From Gluconacetobacter sacchari (GTDB taxonomy: Bacteria > Pseudomonadota > Alphaproteobacteria > Acetobacterales > Acetobacteraceae): a stretch of DNA of 64,000 nt. The stretch spans positions 1 through 64,000 of the forward strand of contig NZ_JABEQJ010000020.1 in the NCBI RefSeq assembly GCF_014174255.1. Direction: 5' to 3'. The notes under the pieces were generated by a model. That model saw only the letters and a list, made by a program, of their open reading frames with translations, made no database searches and was not told the origin of the DNA. Every line of letters starts with the position of its first letter. Within the stretch, counting starts at the first letter, position 1. Made by a program: the position numbers and the translations under genes. This document shows, one piece after another, positions 7,440 through 12,351 of this stretch.

Positions 7440-7904
7440 TCATCGCACATACACCCGGACGGCGCCGATGGTCATCGTCGAATCCGACATGGCCGCCATT
7501 TCCACCTGTTCCGGCCGCGCGCCGGCGGCGACGATCGCGGCCGCCACCGCCTGGCCGTCCGTGGCCACCGCGCGCCGCATCGCTTCGGCCTCCCGCTCCG
7601 GCGTCGGCCCGGCCGGAACCAGCACCCGCACGGTGAACAGCACGTTCGGCTTGCGCGCCAGCGCCCGCGTGACCGCGCCGGCCAGCACCGGCCGCCACTG
7701 GCTGTCCGGCGTGCCGGCACGGATATCGACCAGCGGCGGCACCGGGCGCGGCGCGGGCGGCCTGGGGGGATAATGCGGCACCGGCGGCCGGCTGGCCCGC
7801 GCGTCGAAGGTCCGCTGGTCCACCAGGTCGCAGGCCGCCAGCCCGCCCATGCACAGGGCGGACACGGCCATCAGGATCGGAGCGGTGCGAATGCGATGAA
7901 ACAT
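7440..7904 (-). CDS. Putative lipoprotein of unknown function
   Basis: The product is 154 residues. A type II signal peptide with lipobox LAAC predicts lipidation at Cys25. A Pro-rich linker ([18 protein letters not shown]) follows, then a compact domain of about 95 residues with two helices and strands ending in AVRVYVR. I do not recognise the family. The stop codon overlaps an alternative ATG of hemA, so it is likely the first gene of a two-gene unit and is divergent from the transketolase-like gene 178 bases away. Presumably it is an outer-membrane or periplasm-facing protein; no function can be assigned. Confidence 0.7.
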
Positions 7905-8081
7905 GGGCGGCCACGGTTACAGCATCCACGATACGGAGCAAGAGTACCCGGCCGAAACCGCCGACCGATCGCGTCATGCTTGCGGAGCGGGCGGCACGAT
8001 CCTATAGCCGACTGTAGATCGTTTTCTCCGGCGGCGCGCTCCCTGCGGGCGCGACCGCCCGGATTTCAGGACGCCCGCCCC

Positions 8082-10058
8082 ATGTCCCGCGCGCCGACCG
8101 CCCCCGCCACCGAGCTGGACGCGCCGCCCCCGGTCGAGCCGGCGACGCGGGAGACGATCCACGCCCTGCGCGACGCGGTCCGCGCCCATGTCGCGCTCCG
8201 GCTGGACGATCCGGCCGACGCGGCGCAGGCCGGGGCGATGGCGGTCCCCGCCTGCGTCCTGTGGAATCAGTTCCTCCGCTTCGATCCCGCCAGCCCCGAC
8301 TGGCCCGACCGCGATCGCTTCGTCGTCTCGTCCACGCGGCACCGGCCGCTGCTGGACGCGCTGATGCGCCTGGCCGGCCAGACGCCGGCCCCCGACGGCC
8401 CGACGGTCGAATATGGCGTCCATCCGGCGGTGGAAATGGCCTTCGGCCCCAGCGGCCAGGGGGTGGGGGCCGCGATCGGCATGGCGCTGGCCGAGCGGCA
8501 GCTCGCGGCGCGCTTCGGTCGCTCGATCGTCAATCACCGGGTCTGGGCCCTGTCCTGCGGCACCGAACTGGCGACCGGCGTGGCGATGGAGGCCTCTTCC
8601 CTGGCCGCGCGGATGCGCCTGGACCGCCTCACCGTCCTGTTCGAAATCGCACCGCACGAGGAAGACGAGGCCGAGGACACGCTGGCCCGCTACGCCGCGA
8701 CCGGCTGGATGGTCCGCAAGGTCGATGCCGACGACCACGACGCGGTGCAGGCCGCGCTGTCGGCGGCGCTGCGCTCGCGCAAGCCCTCCATCCTCGCCTG
8801 CTCCGTCACCCTGCGCCCGGCCCCGCGCCCACCCGCCTCGCCCGGCGCCGGCCCGGAACCCGACCATTCGACGCTGCTGTGGGCCGGCGCCGCCCGCCGC
8901 GGCGCCTCGGCCCGGCGGTCGTGGCTGCGCCGGCTGGTCAAGCACCGGTATCGCGGAGAATTCGAACGCGTCGCCACCCGCCGCCTCCCCCCATTCTGGC
9001 GCGAGGACTGGCGGCGCACATGGCACATGTCCGCGATGCCCGCGATCCTGCCCGCATCCGGCCCCGACACCACGCTGGGCTACGGGCGCCAGGGGCTGGA
9101 GATCCTGCGCGACCTGCTGCCGGAAATGCTCTGCCTGTCCTCCCGGCGCGGGCGCGAGCGGACCGAGGCGATGCCGGCCGACCAGGCGCTGCCCGATTGC
9201 GGCACGCTGGTCCACGGCCTGGCGGCGCTGCTGAACGGGATCGCGGTGCATGGCGGGCTGGTGCCCTGCGGCGCCATCACCTTCGTCGCCATCGACCGCA
9301 TGCGCCCCGCCCTGCGCTTCGCGGCGATGATGCGCCGGCAGGTGATCTACCTGCTGACCGACGATGGACTGGCCCTCAGCGAGGACGGCGCGGGCTGGCT
9401 GCCGGTCGAACAGTTGGCCAGCCTGCGCGCCATGCCCAACGTCCTGGTCTTCCGCCCCGCCGACCGGCGCGAGACGATGGAATGCTGGGAACTCGCCCTC
9501 CGCCGCGCCGACGGCCCCAGCCTGATCGCGCTGTCGCCGATGGCCTCCGGCGTCCCCGCCCCGGGCCTGCGCCCCTACCGGCCACGCGACGGCAGCGCCC
9601 GCGGCGGCTATGTGATGGAGGAAGCCCGCGGCCAGCGCCAGGTCACGCTGATCGCCACCGGCAGCGAAATCGGAATCGCGCGGCAGGCGCAGCTTCTCCT
9701 GGCCCGCGACGGAATCGGCGCCGCCCTGGTGTCGCTGCCCTGCTGGGAACTGTTCGCCGGCCAGGATGCCGCCTATCGCGACCAGGTGCTGGGCGATGCC
9801 CCGCGCATCGGGATCGAGGCCGCGTCGGGCTTCGGCTGGGACCGGTGGCTCGGCCCGCGCGGCACCTTCATCGGCATGGAGACGTTCTGCGAGGCCGCGC
9901 CGTCGCACGAACTGTACCGCCGGCTGGGCATAACGGCCGAACGCGTACACGAAACCGCGATCCGCCTTGTCAATGAGACGGGACGTGACTTTCAATCGCC
10001 TTCGGGGCAGAAAGCGGATGGTCATCGCGCACGATCCGCTGCCGGAGGCATCACGTAG
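8082..10058 (+). CDS. Transketolase-like protein, apparently catalytically dead
   Basis: The 658-residue protein aligns with transketolase from end to end (for example DRDRFVVSS, FGPSGQGVGAAIGMALAE, MEASSLAARMRLDRL, NGIAVHGG, LPVEQLASLRAMPN, LIATGSEI). Yet nearly every ligand of thiamine diphosphate and Mg2+ is changed. The GDG of the ThDP motif is CGT (159-161), the DDN that follows is replaced (FEIAPHEED, 187-195), the catalytic Glu of GVREHAM is Val (GTLVHGL, 374-380), and the active-site His residues of SGHPG, NGHGS, THDS and GPTHQP are absent. The frame is intact, so this looks like a maintained pseudoenzyme rather than a decaying gene. It stands where many alphaproteobacteria keep functional tkt, immediately before gap-pgk (47-base gap). 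A genuine transketolase must be encoded elsewhere. Confidence 0.88.
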   Translation: MSRAPTAPATELDAPPPVEPATRETIHALRDAVRAHVALRLDDPADAAQAGAMAVPACVLWNQFLRFDPASPDWPDRDRFVVSSTRHRPLLDALMRLAGQTPAPDGPTVEYGVHPAVEMAFGPSGQGVGAAIGMALAERQLAARFGRSIVNHRVWALSCGTELATGVAMEASSLAARMRLDRLTVLFEIAPHEEDEAEDTLARYAATGWMVRKVDADDHDAVQAALSAALRSRKPSILACSVTLRPAPRPPASPGAGPEPDHSTLLWAGAARRGASARRSWLRRLVKHRYRGEFERVATRRLPPFWREDWRRTWHMSAMPAILPASGPDTTLGYGRQGLEILRDLLPEMLCLSSRRGRERTEAMPADQALPDCGTLVHGLAALLNGIAVHGGLVPCGAITFVAIDRMRPALRFAAMMRRQVIYLLTDDGLALSEDGAGWLPVEQLASLRAMPNVLVFRPADRRETMECWELALRRADGPSLIALSPMASGVPAPGLRPYRPRDGSARGGYVMEEARGQRQVTLIATGSEIGIARQAQLLLARDGIGAALVSLPCWELFAGQDAAYRDQVLGDAPRIGIEAASGFGWDRWLGPRGTFIGMETFCEAAPSHELYRRLGITAERVHETAIRLVNETGRDFQSPSGQKADGHRARSAAGGIT

Positions 10059-10105: not shown

Positions 10106-11128
10106 ATGGCTGTCAAAGTCGCAATCAACGGTTTCGGGCGCATCGGTCGCCTCGTCCTGCGCGGCATCATCGAAAGCGGACGCACCGACGTCGTGCCCGT
10201 GGCGATCAACGACCTGGGCAGCGTCGCCGACAACGCCCACCTGCTGACCTACGACAGCATCCACGGCCGTTTCCCCGGCGAAGTCCGCGTTGAAGGCAAC
10301 AATATCGTGATCACGGCCAACGGCCGGACCTACGCGCCCATCGCCGTCTCGGCCGAAGCCAACCCGACCAAGGTGCCGTTCGAAGGCGTGGACGTGGCGA
10401 TGGAATGCACCGGCCGCTTCACCAACAAGGAAAAGGCCGCCCACCTGATCGAGGCCGGCGCGCGCAAGGTCATCATCTCGGCGCCCGCCAGCCATGTCGA
10501 CGCCACCATCGTCTACGGCGTGAACCAGGGCACGCTGACCAGCGACATGACCGTGATCTCCAACGCCTCCTGCACCACCAACTGCCTGGCGCCGGTCGCC
10601 AAGGTGCTGGACGAGACGTTCGGCATCGAGCGCGGCTACATGGTCACCATCCATTCCTATACCGGCGACCAGCGCACGGTGGACACGCTGCATGGCGACC
10701 CGCGCCGCGCCCGCGCGGCGGCGATGAACATCATCCCGACCTCGACCGGCGCCGCCCGCGCGGTCGGCCTGGTGCTGCCGCACCTCAAGGGCAAGCTGGA
10801 CGGCACGGCCATCCGCGTCCCGACCCCCAACGTCTCGCTGGTCTCGCTGGATTTCGTGCCCACCCGCATCCCGGCCTCGGTCGCAGCGGTCAACGAGGCG
10901 ATGCTGAAGGCGGCGTCCGAGGGCCCGCTCAAGGGCATCCTGGCCTACAACACCGCGCCGCTGGTCAGTTCCGACTTCAACCACTCCATCGCCTCCTCGA
11001 CCTTCGACGCGACCGAGACGGCGCTGATCGACGGCGGCAAGCTGGTTCGGATCTGTAGCTGGTACGACAATGAATGGGGCTTCTCGAACCGCATGTCCGA
11101 TACGGCCGCTGTCTTCGGCGCGCTCTGA
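10106..11128 (+). CDS. gap: Glyceraldehyde-3-phosphate dehydrogenase, type I
   Basis: A 340-residue NAD-dependent enzyme of glycolysis/gluconeogenesis that makes 1,3-bisphosphoglycerate. The Rossmann motif [13 protein letters not shown] opens the protein. The active-site signature [12 protein letters not shown] carries the catalytic Cys at about 156, with the partner His near 183 (TIHSYTGDQ), and the C-terminus has the usual [13 protein letters not shown]. The pgk start codon overlaps its stop codon (TGATG), so gap and pgk are translationally coupled. The transketolase-like gene lies 47 bases upstream in the same direction. Confidence 0.97.
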
Positions 11129-12351
11129 TGGCCAGGCTGTCCTTCAAGACGCTGGACGCCTTGCAGCCCAAGGGGCGCAAGGTACTCCTGCGCGCCGATC
11201 TGAACGTGCCGGTGCGCGACGGCCAGATCACGGACCTCACCCGGATCGAGCGCCTGGCGCCCACCATCCGCGAACTGGCCGACAAGGGCGCGCGGGTGAT
11301 CGTGGTCAGCCATTTCGACCGCCCCAAGGGCCAGCGCGTGCCGTCCATGTCGCTGGAACCGATCGCCGCCGCCCTGGCCGCCGCCCTGGGCCACCCGGTG
11401 CGCTTCGCCGAGGATTGCATCGGCCCGGTGGCCGAGCAGGCGGTCGCCAGCCTCCAGGACGGTGACGTGCTGGTGCTGGAAAACACCCGCTTCCACCCGG
11501 GCGAGGAAAAGAACGACCCCGACCTGTCCCAGGCGCTGGCCGCGCTGGCCGACGATTACGTCAACGACGCGTTCTCCGCCGCCCATCGCGCCCACGCCTC
11601 GACCGAGGGCGTGGCCCGCTTCCTGCCGTCCTTCGCCGGCCGGCTGATGGAGGCGGAACTCAACGCCCTGAACATCGCGCTGGAAAATCCGGTCCACCCG
11701 GTCGGCGCGATCGTCGGCGGCGCCAAGATCTCGACCAAGCTCGACCTGATCGGCAACCTGCTGGACAAGGTCGACGTCCTGATCATCGGCGGCGCGATGG
11801 CCAACACCTTCCTGGCGGCCAAGGGCGTCGCCGTCGGCAAGTCGTTGCAGGAAGCCGACATGCACGACACCGCCCGCGCCATCATGGAACAGGCGGCGAG
11901 CCGCAACTGCCAGATCGTCCTGCCCGTCGACGCGGTGACGGCCACGGAATTCCGCGCCGACCCGCCGACGAAGACGGTGCCGGTCGACGCCGTCCCCGCC
12001 GACGCGATGATCCTGGACGCGGGGCCGGAAACGGTGCGCCTGCTGACGGAAAAGATCGTGGGGCTGAAGACGCTGGTCTGGAACGGCCCGCTGGGCGCGT
12101 TCGAACTCCACCCGTTCGACACCGCCACCAACCTGGTCGCGGCCGAGGTCGCGCGGCGCACCCAGGCCGGCCAGTTGACCAGCGTTGCCGGCGGCGGCGA
12201 CACGGTCTCGGCCCTGCGCCACGCGGGCGTGGCGGACGAGATGTCCTACACCTCGACCGCCGGCGGCGCTTTCCTGGAATGGCTGGAAGGCAAGACCCTG
12301 CCCGGCATCCAGGCGCTGGGCGAACTGTCCGGGCGGATTCTCCCGCTCTGA
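11128..12351 (+). CDS. pgk: Phosphoglycerate kinase
   Basis: The product is 407 residues; it transfers the acyl-phosphate of 1,3-bisphosphoglycerate to ADP. Visible family motifs are [15 protein letters not shown] near the N-terminus (3-phosphoglycerate site), [23 protein letters not shown], and in the nucleotide domain [25 protein letters not shown] and [12 protein letters not shown]. The ATG at 11128 overlaps the gap stop codon by one base. Longer in-frame sequence to 11074 lies inside gap and is not the start. The gene converges on ftsY with only 21 bases between the two stop codons and no obvious U-tract terminator. Confidence 0.97.

Follow-up and report, generated by a model that had tools for sequence, protein, structure and literature searches.

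Genes and features of the locus

At the locus under study, the window (the whole stretch of DNA analysed, 64,000 nucleotides) carries a single uninterrupted open reading frame, running from its ATG to the stop codon, which encodes a transketolase-like protein and is referred to below as the pseudo-transketolase gene. It is followed on the same strand by gap and pgk (Table 1), and the likely pgk start shares one base with the gap stop codon. The spacing between the pseudo-transketolase gene and gap ranged from 19 to 52 bp in the 24 loci measured (genera g1, g97, g84 and g55), and the gene is probably the first of an operon with gap and pgk. On its 5′ side, the opposite strand holds two genes: a small one that matched no Pfam family, and one assigned to aminotransferase class I/II, presumably the 5-aminolevulinate synthase gene hemA. 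The small gene (7440-7904, minus strand) is conserved and adjoins the operon. An antisense ORF of 683 amino acids (7974-10025) was ruled out as a true gene, codon-level selection acting on the plus-strand frame.

A promoter-like element precedes the gene, and a like one was found in 13/13 orthologous loci of the genus, two of them with a weaker -10 box. Across the genus, the TTGCNN and TATAGC boxes are separated by 17-18 bp and start 37-120 bp 5′ of the assigned start codon; the pattern with one mismatch was also recovered in 25 of 500 shuffles of the gene's 400-bp upstream stretch. Since the element is present in all 13 genus loci, the protein is probably made together with GAPDH and PGK.

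Table 1. Position of the genes, motifs and segments described in the text.
Feature	Position	Strand	Remarks
Promoter-like element TTGCGG-N17-TATAGC	7980..8008	+	Putative; 5′ of the pseudo-transketolase gene, sequence only
Pseudo-transketolase gene	8082..10058	+	658 aa; ORF, Pfam, key-residue score, codon selection
Loop 1 segment R79-Q126	8316..8459	+	13 residues shorter than in intact relatives; His of GHAS and PGHP lost
Former GDG Mg/ThDP motif, now SCGTELATG (aa 158-166)	8553..8579	+	Alignment
Loop 2 segment V185-R203, former DxN metal-ligand loop	8634..8690	+	6 residues shorter; length comparison
Loop 3 segment C240-R278, former AHGxP loop	8799..8915	+	About 24 residues shorter; length comparison
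Former catalytic-Glu motif GVREHAM, now GTLVHGL (aa 374-380)	9201..9221	+	Alignment
Remodelled pyrimidine-domain pocket R406, D427, W439	9297..9404	+	Residue comparison
C-terminal domain, best retained	9594..9941	+	33/41 family-invariant residues kept (four genus representatives)
gap (glyceraldehyde-3-phosphate dehydrogenase)	10106..11128	+	47 bp 3′ of the pseudo-transketolase gene
pgk (phosphoglycerate kinase)	11128..12351	+	Start chosen inside a longer ORF, 11074-12351

The first-pass annotation had described a full-length, in-frame transketolase-like gene, and this description held, since one frame matches the three transketolase domains of Pfam (Transketolase_N, E 5e-34; Transket_pyr, 7e-21; Transketolase_C_1, 6e-32). 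The match to TIGR00232 scored 323 bits, under the 682-bit equivalog cut-off. An AlphaFold2 model (pLDDT 75.5, pTM 0.78) had only transketolases among its PDB neighbours (50 matches listed), so that both Pfam and the predicted structure place the protein in the family, with its PP, Pyr and C-terminal domains, and the transketolase fold is predicted to survive. Weak model confidence at the active-site loop 429-440 is uninformative about degeneration, since L018, an intact control, was equally low there. The model of L018, built from a less diverse alignment of 20 sequences, was lower overall (pLDDT 66.3); its low-confidence stretches (120-141, 213-222, 274-287 and 397-433) roughly coincide with the segments that are shorter in the pseudoenzyme, the two alignments being unmatched.

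Loss of active-site residues and trimming of three loops

Ten residues at cofactor or catalytic positions of transketolase (EC 2.2.1.1) were scored: the His of SGHPG, GHAS, PGHP and AHGxP, the Asp of GDG, the Asn of DxN, the catalytic Glu, the His and Asp of THDS and the His of THQP. The pseudo-transketolase scored 1/10, the Asp of THDS being the sole survivor. The same genome encodes an intact transketolase (L176:3347-5455, minus strand) which scored 10/10, shares 31% identity with the pseudo-transketolase and lies before a tal/pgi gene. The latter (L176:364-3243, minus strand), directly behind the catalytic tkt, encodes a protein of 959 aa in which transaldolase and phosphoglucose-isomerase domains are combined. 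Alignment with the intact copy bore out the claim that the ThDP/Mg2+ ligands, the catalytic Glu and the active-site His residues are altered: SGHPG is replaced by PADAA, GHAS by TRHR, PGHP by GPTV, CGDGDMMEG by SCGTELATG, YDSNRIS by FEI, GVREHAM by GTLVHGL and THDSIGVGEDGPTHQP by TDDGLALSEDGAGWLP, while AHGEP is gone except for its Pro. The ThDP/Mg signature GDG...DxN thus reads CGT...FEI in a shortened loop, the catalytic Glu is Val377, and none of the six His is retained (0/6).

In addition to these motif losses, the PP domain is trimmed at three loops. The 55 relatives at 10/10 enclose 57-59 residues between R79 and Q126, 23 between V185 and R203 and 60-61 between C240 and R278, against 45-46, 17 and 33-41, respectively, in 12 aligned proteins of the genus. 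Loop 3 was short in every measured lineage scoring ≤6/10, with 31-46 residues in the separate lineages L022, L048, L051, L153, L155, L164 and g11 and 23-33 in the sister cases; loop 1 was of normal length in L017, L022, L048, L051, L153, L155 and g11. Two intermediates enclosed 60 residues in loop 3 (L054, 8/10, inside the intact range) and 58 (L143, 9/10), and since loop 3 of L054 is normal, trimming is not universal at early stages. Five loci represent intermediate stages, in which the AHGxP His is lost and most other motifs remain (L048 and L051, both 6/10, L054, L143 and L153); much of the AHGxP loop is also lost in L048, L051 and L153. Judging by these intermediate loci, the sequences suggest that decay starts at AHGxP.

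Retained residues and a rebuilt pocket

Among positions that are invariant in the family, four representatives of the genus kept 33/41 in the C-terminal domain, 38/72 in Pyr and 52/110 in PP. More broadly, 246 positions are at least 95% invariant in intact relatives, and 111 of these persist in at least 80% of readable sequences from 23 degenerate representatives. Three former active-site positions of the pyrimidine domain carry new residues across the representatives of the main clade and its sisters, namely Y to R406 (23/23), H to W439 (91%) and H to D427 (83%); we take R406, W439 and D427 to correspond to E. coli Tyr440, His473 and His461. These replacements are absent from the separately degenerated lineages except for the W in L164. 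The His and Arg residues that presumably serve as the usual phosphate ligands of transketolase are mostly replaced, which makes the sugar-phosphate binding proposed earlier unlikely, at least in the usual pose. The largely fixed residues R406, D427 and W439 point to neofunctionalisation, also proposed, as a possibility.

Purifying selection on the degenerate gene

Omega was estimated by pairwise codon maximum likelihood (GY94) on five pairs of the genus, at distances of 0.07, 0.09, 0.21, 0.49 and 1.0. It reached 0.088 for the pseudo-transketolase, omega = 1 being rejected (2dlnL 829), about twice that of the intact tkt (0.044) from the same genus, where gap gave 0.031. YN00 gave 0.058-0.087 on the three closest pairs of the genus (dS 0.09-0.18). 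By part, omega was 0.078 for PP, 0.122 for the linker, 0.043 for Pyr, 0.065 for the C-terminal domain and 0.31 for the tail; Pyr had the lowest value, as it also did in the intact tkt (0.015). The other degenerate genera, among them the separately degenerated g11 (0.055), gave 0.052-0.121, several of these pairs being very divergent. The pair L171/L063, at the limit of distance, gave 0.022, against 0.040 for intact relatives. A hidden cis-element was rejected as the cause of conservation, since fourfold sites vary along the gene in the windows with enough sites.

The dN/dS estimate across orthologues thus indicates strong purifying selection on a protein that has lost its catalytic residues. 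The first-pass annotation had argued for a retained non-catalytic function from the preserved frame, and purifying selection supports that claim with stronger evidence than an open frame. Neutral decay was looked for as well and was not seen, no frame being disrupted in 13 loci of the genus and omega lying far below 1.

Repeated degeneration of the gap-linked transketolase

Orthologues were found in 13/14 genomes of the window's genus, the 14th being a draft of 1310 contigs with a partial match. All 13 loci read have an open frame and score 1/10. The losses recur in 12 further genomes of the genus and are therefore not due to chance or sequencing error. Breadth was assessed on 100 transketolases gathered by similarity to the pseudo-transketolase, a sample that is nearly all Acetobacteraceae and biased to good matches. 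Fifty-five scored 10/10, two 9/10, two 8/10 (one truncated) and 41 ≤6/10, the last including L024 (399 aa, N-terminal half missing), whose four readable key residues are all changed. Within the stretch read, gap lies downstream on the same strand in 96/100 of these loci, and it follows in 54/57 of the relatives at 9-10/10, in keeping with the earlier claim that the gene has kept the ancestral tkt position. A scan of named genomes gave at least 80 loci, with 77 at 10/10, L062 at 9/10 and two degenerate Acetobacter genes (L056 and L063) among the matches listed. The counterpart of the small gene at 7440-7904 lies beside the operon in 31/41 low-scoring loci, within the stretch read.

A gap tree placed the window's genome near Acetobacter, in a main degenerate block made of the window's genus, g97, g84, Acetobacter and neighbours. 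Sister degenerate cases are L017, L045, L046 and L156, and separate cases lie within the intact block (L022; L023 and L168; L051, L054 and L155; L048; L164; L153). Over 105 rows, 8 changes are required for the class scoring 0-4, with starred branches forcing at least 7; besides intact rows, this count sets that class against 5 intermediate rows and 11 rows lacking the gene. With 88 rows and scores ≤8 set against 9-10, at least 5 changes of state are needed, many branches being weak. The gap-linked transketolase of Acetobacteraceae thus appears, from these sequence comparisons, to have degenerated several separate times, with at least five changes.

Eleven of 30 picked genomes had no transketolase 5′ of gap and no remnant of one in a profile search within 1.5 kb, so that some genera can do without the gene. 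The counterpart of the small gene at 7440-7904 stands beside gap in 9/11 of these genomes. One of the eleven, G153, keeps a pseudo-transketolase elsewhere, a very diverged frame of 626 codons (L171:3372-5252), which remains by the aminotransferase-like and small upstream genes; gap-pgk is on another contig (L216:1495-2514), and the gene now 3′ of the pseudo-transketolase is one that we take to be acnB-like.

All 42 tabulated degenerate genomes (score ≤8) have a second transketolase. In 40/42 it is closely related to the catalytic tkt copy, and in G122 and G233 it is another transketolase; L030, incomplete (586 aa, start missing), was left out of this table. The second copy was read in 37/42, always at 10/10, and was seen by search only in the other five. 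Among 50 tabulated genomes at 9-10, which leave aside 7 further loci at these scores, 5 had a second copy of the catalytic type, the count covering that type only. The raw association between degeneration and second copy is strong (Fisher test, p 6e-18) but not phylogenetically independent, with few independent transitions, and a sign test had too few pairs. One genome, G096, has two intact catalytic-type copies (L242 and L243) besides the pseudoenzyme. The suggestion that another copy took over catalysis is supported by the intact tkt present elsewhere in the genome. Judged from the aligned sequences, ThDP, metal and catalytic residues are gone from the gap-linked transketolase, and its active-site loops are shorter, in genomes that hold another, intact transketolase.

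Possible roles of the protein

Taken together, these results make it probable that the pseudo-transketolase is a functional, non-catalytic transketolase pseudoenzyme, although, in the main clade, only about one in two family-invariant PP and Pyr residues is retained, omega exceeds that of the intact copy and some genera dispense with the gene. In the mechanism that we propose, the conserved promoter-like element would drive the gene together with gap and pgk, and the protein would fold as a permanently cofactor-free, stable apo transketolase body. Some loops of apo-transketolases need ThDP to become ordered; in this protein, without cofactor, such loops have been trimmed, and the pseudo-transketolase would work by binding. 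Neutral or recent decay of a redundant gene would account for the intermediate states in the family and for the genera without the gene at gap, but it is barely credible given an omega far below 1 in all lineages tested, the undisrupted frames and the clade-wide conservation of R406 and W439, and it is refuted for the window's genus. It is also very improbable that the gene is a place-holder, its frame kept to protect gap and pgk from polarity or for translational coupling and its protein having no role. Such selection would not hold an amino-acid sequence, and the omega, not near 1, largely refutes this explanation; the G153 protein, very diverged, persists though gap-pgk lies on another contig. 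The place at the head of a probable operon, close to gap, and the lack of a remnant where the gene is missing speak for it.

What the functional pseudoenzyme would bind is a more tentative matter. Our leading guess, drawn by analogy, is that it may be a regulatory partner of the catalytic transketolase, as a TKTL1-like heterodimer or as a decoy. The predicted fold is retained, every tabulated degenerate genome holds another transketolase, and human TKTL1, without the segment that contains loop 1, pairs with TKT and alters its activity according to PMC6555833. On the other hand, the two copies are only 31% identical, co-occurrence is expected anyway because loss of the only transketolase would be harmful, and the association is not independent of phylogeny. 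Loop 1 lines the dimer interface in human TKT (PMC3485151) and is shortened here, which leaves a heterodimer uncertain. Nearly as likely as this guess, and thus rather improbable, is GAPDH, PGK or another enzyme as the binding partner; since gap-linked synteny predates degeneration, it gives no evidence for the GAPDH/PGK scaffold role put forward earlier. Similarly doubtful, and also close to the leading guess in likelihood, is a ligand sensor or a new activity in the rebuilt R406/D427/W439 pocket. The clade-wide replacement of three former active-site positions and the strong constraint on the pyrimidine domain favour it, but the three PP-domain loops around the site are shortened, the replacements are not common to the separately degenerated lineages apart from the W in L164, and it is in the pyrimidine domain that the intact copy, too, shows its tightest constraint. 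In its fullest form, our interpretation is speculative: the gap-linked transketolase of Acetobacteraceae would have been converted repeatedly to a loop-stripped, cofactor-free protein which, in the clade of the window's genus and Acetobacter, would be a conserved regulator with a rebuilt R406/D427/W439 pocket, coupling lower glycolysis to the pentose phosphate pathway as a bacterial counterpart of TKTL1.

Comparison with known systems

No description of a bacterial transketolase pseudoenzyme was found in the open-access literature among the matches listed. Pseudoenzymes of metabolic enzymes are already known; what appears new, within the literature searched, is this family, with its repeated origin and its trimmed loops. 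Given its good scores against transketolase domain models, the pseudo-transketolase is likely to be annotated as an enzyme, in which case metabolic models would count a dead enzyme as active. For the acetic acid bacterium Gluconacetobacter xylinus, PMC5908849 lists four tkt genes in the pentose phosphate pathway. The separate losses at one operon position, each with another copy present, constitute a natural experiment on a cofactor-less transketolase body.

The protein shares with bacterial transketolase (TIGR00232) the fold, the order of the three domains and the position before gap seen in intact Acetobacteraceae; it differs in lacking 9/10 key residues, in three shorter PP loops and in a score far under the cut-off. 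The split-chain transketolase (PDB 6yak/6yaj) belongs to the same superfamily but is listed as N- and C-terminal components, whereas the pseudo-transketolase is one continuous chain whose active site is dead.

Human TKTL1 is likewise a transketolase paralogue without the PP segment bearing the invariant His77 and His110, retained along with an intact transketolase (PMC3485151). According to that paper, the deletion corresponds to hTKT 76-113, with the invariant His77, Tyr83, Gly90, His110 and Pro111. The spacing of His77, Tyr83 and Gly90 fits the intact copy L001, and loop 1 falls in the segment deleted from TKTL1. Likewise, the pseudo-transketolase has lost the equivalents of His77 and His110 and has a shorter loop 1 segment, beside the intact paralogue L176. 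The two proteins differ in several respects. Identity between TKTL1 and TKT reaches 61%, and 8 invariant residues are missing from TKTL1 (PMC3485151); the pseudo-transketolase, at 31% identity to its intact copy, has diverged much further. It has lost only part of the length of that segment, together with the GDG, REHAM and THDS/THQP motifs, and presumably arose separately from TKTL1. Recombinant TKTL1 had virtually no activity and formed heterodimers with TKT whose activities were asymmetric (PMC6555833), and a delta-38 TKT modelling TKTL1 bound no ThDP and was inactive and mostly monomeric (PMC3485151). The use of a cofactor-less transketolase body, disputed for TKTL1, could be addressed in culturable bacteria. 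The status of TKTL1 itself is disputed, PMC6334435 arguing for a functional transketolase.
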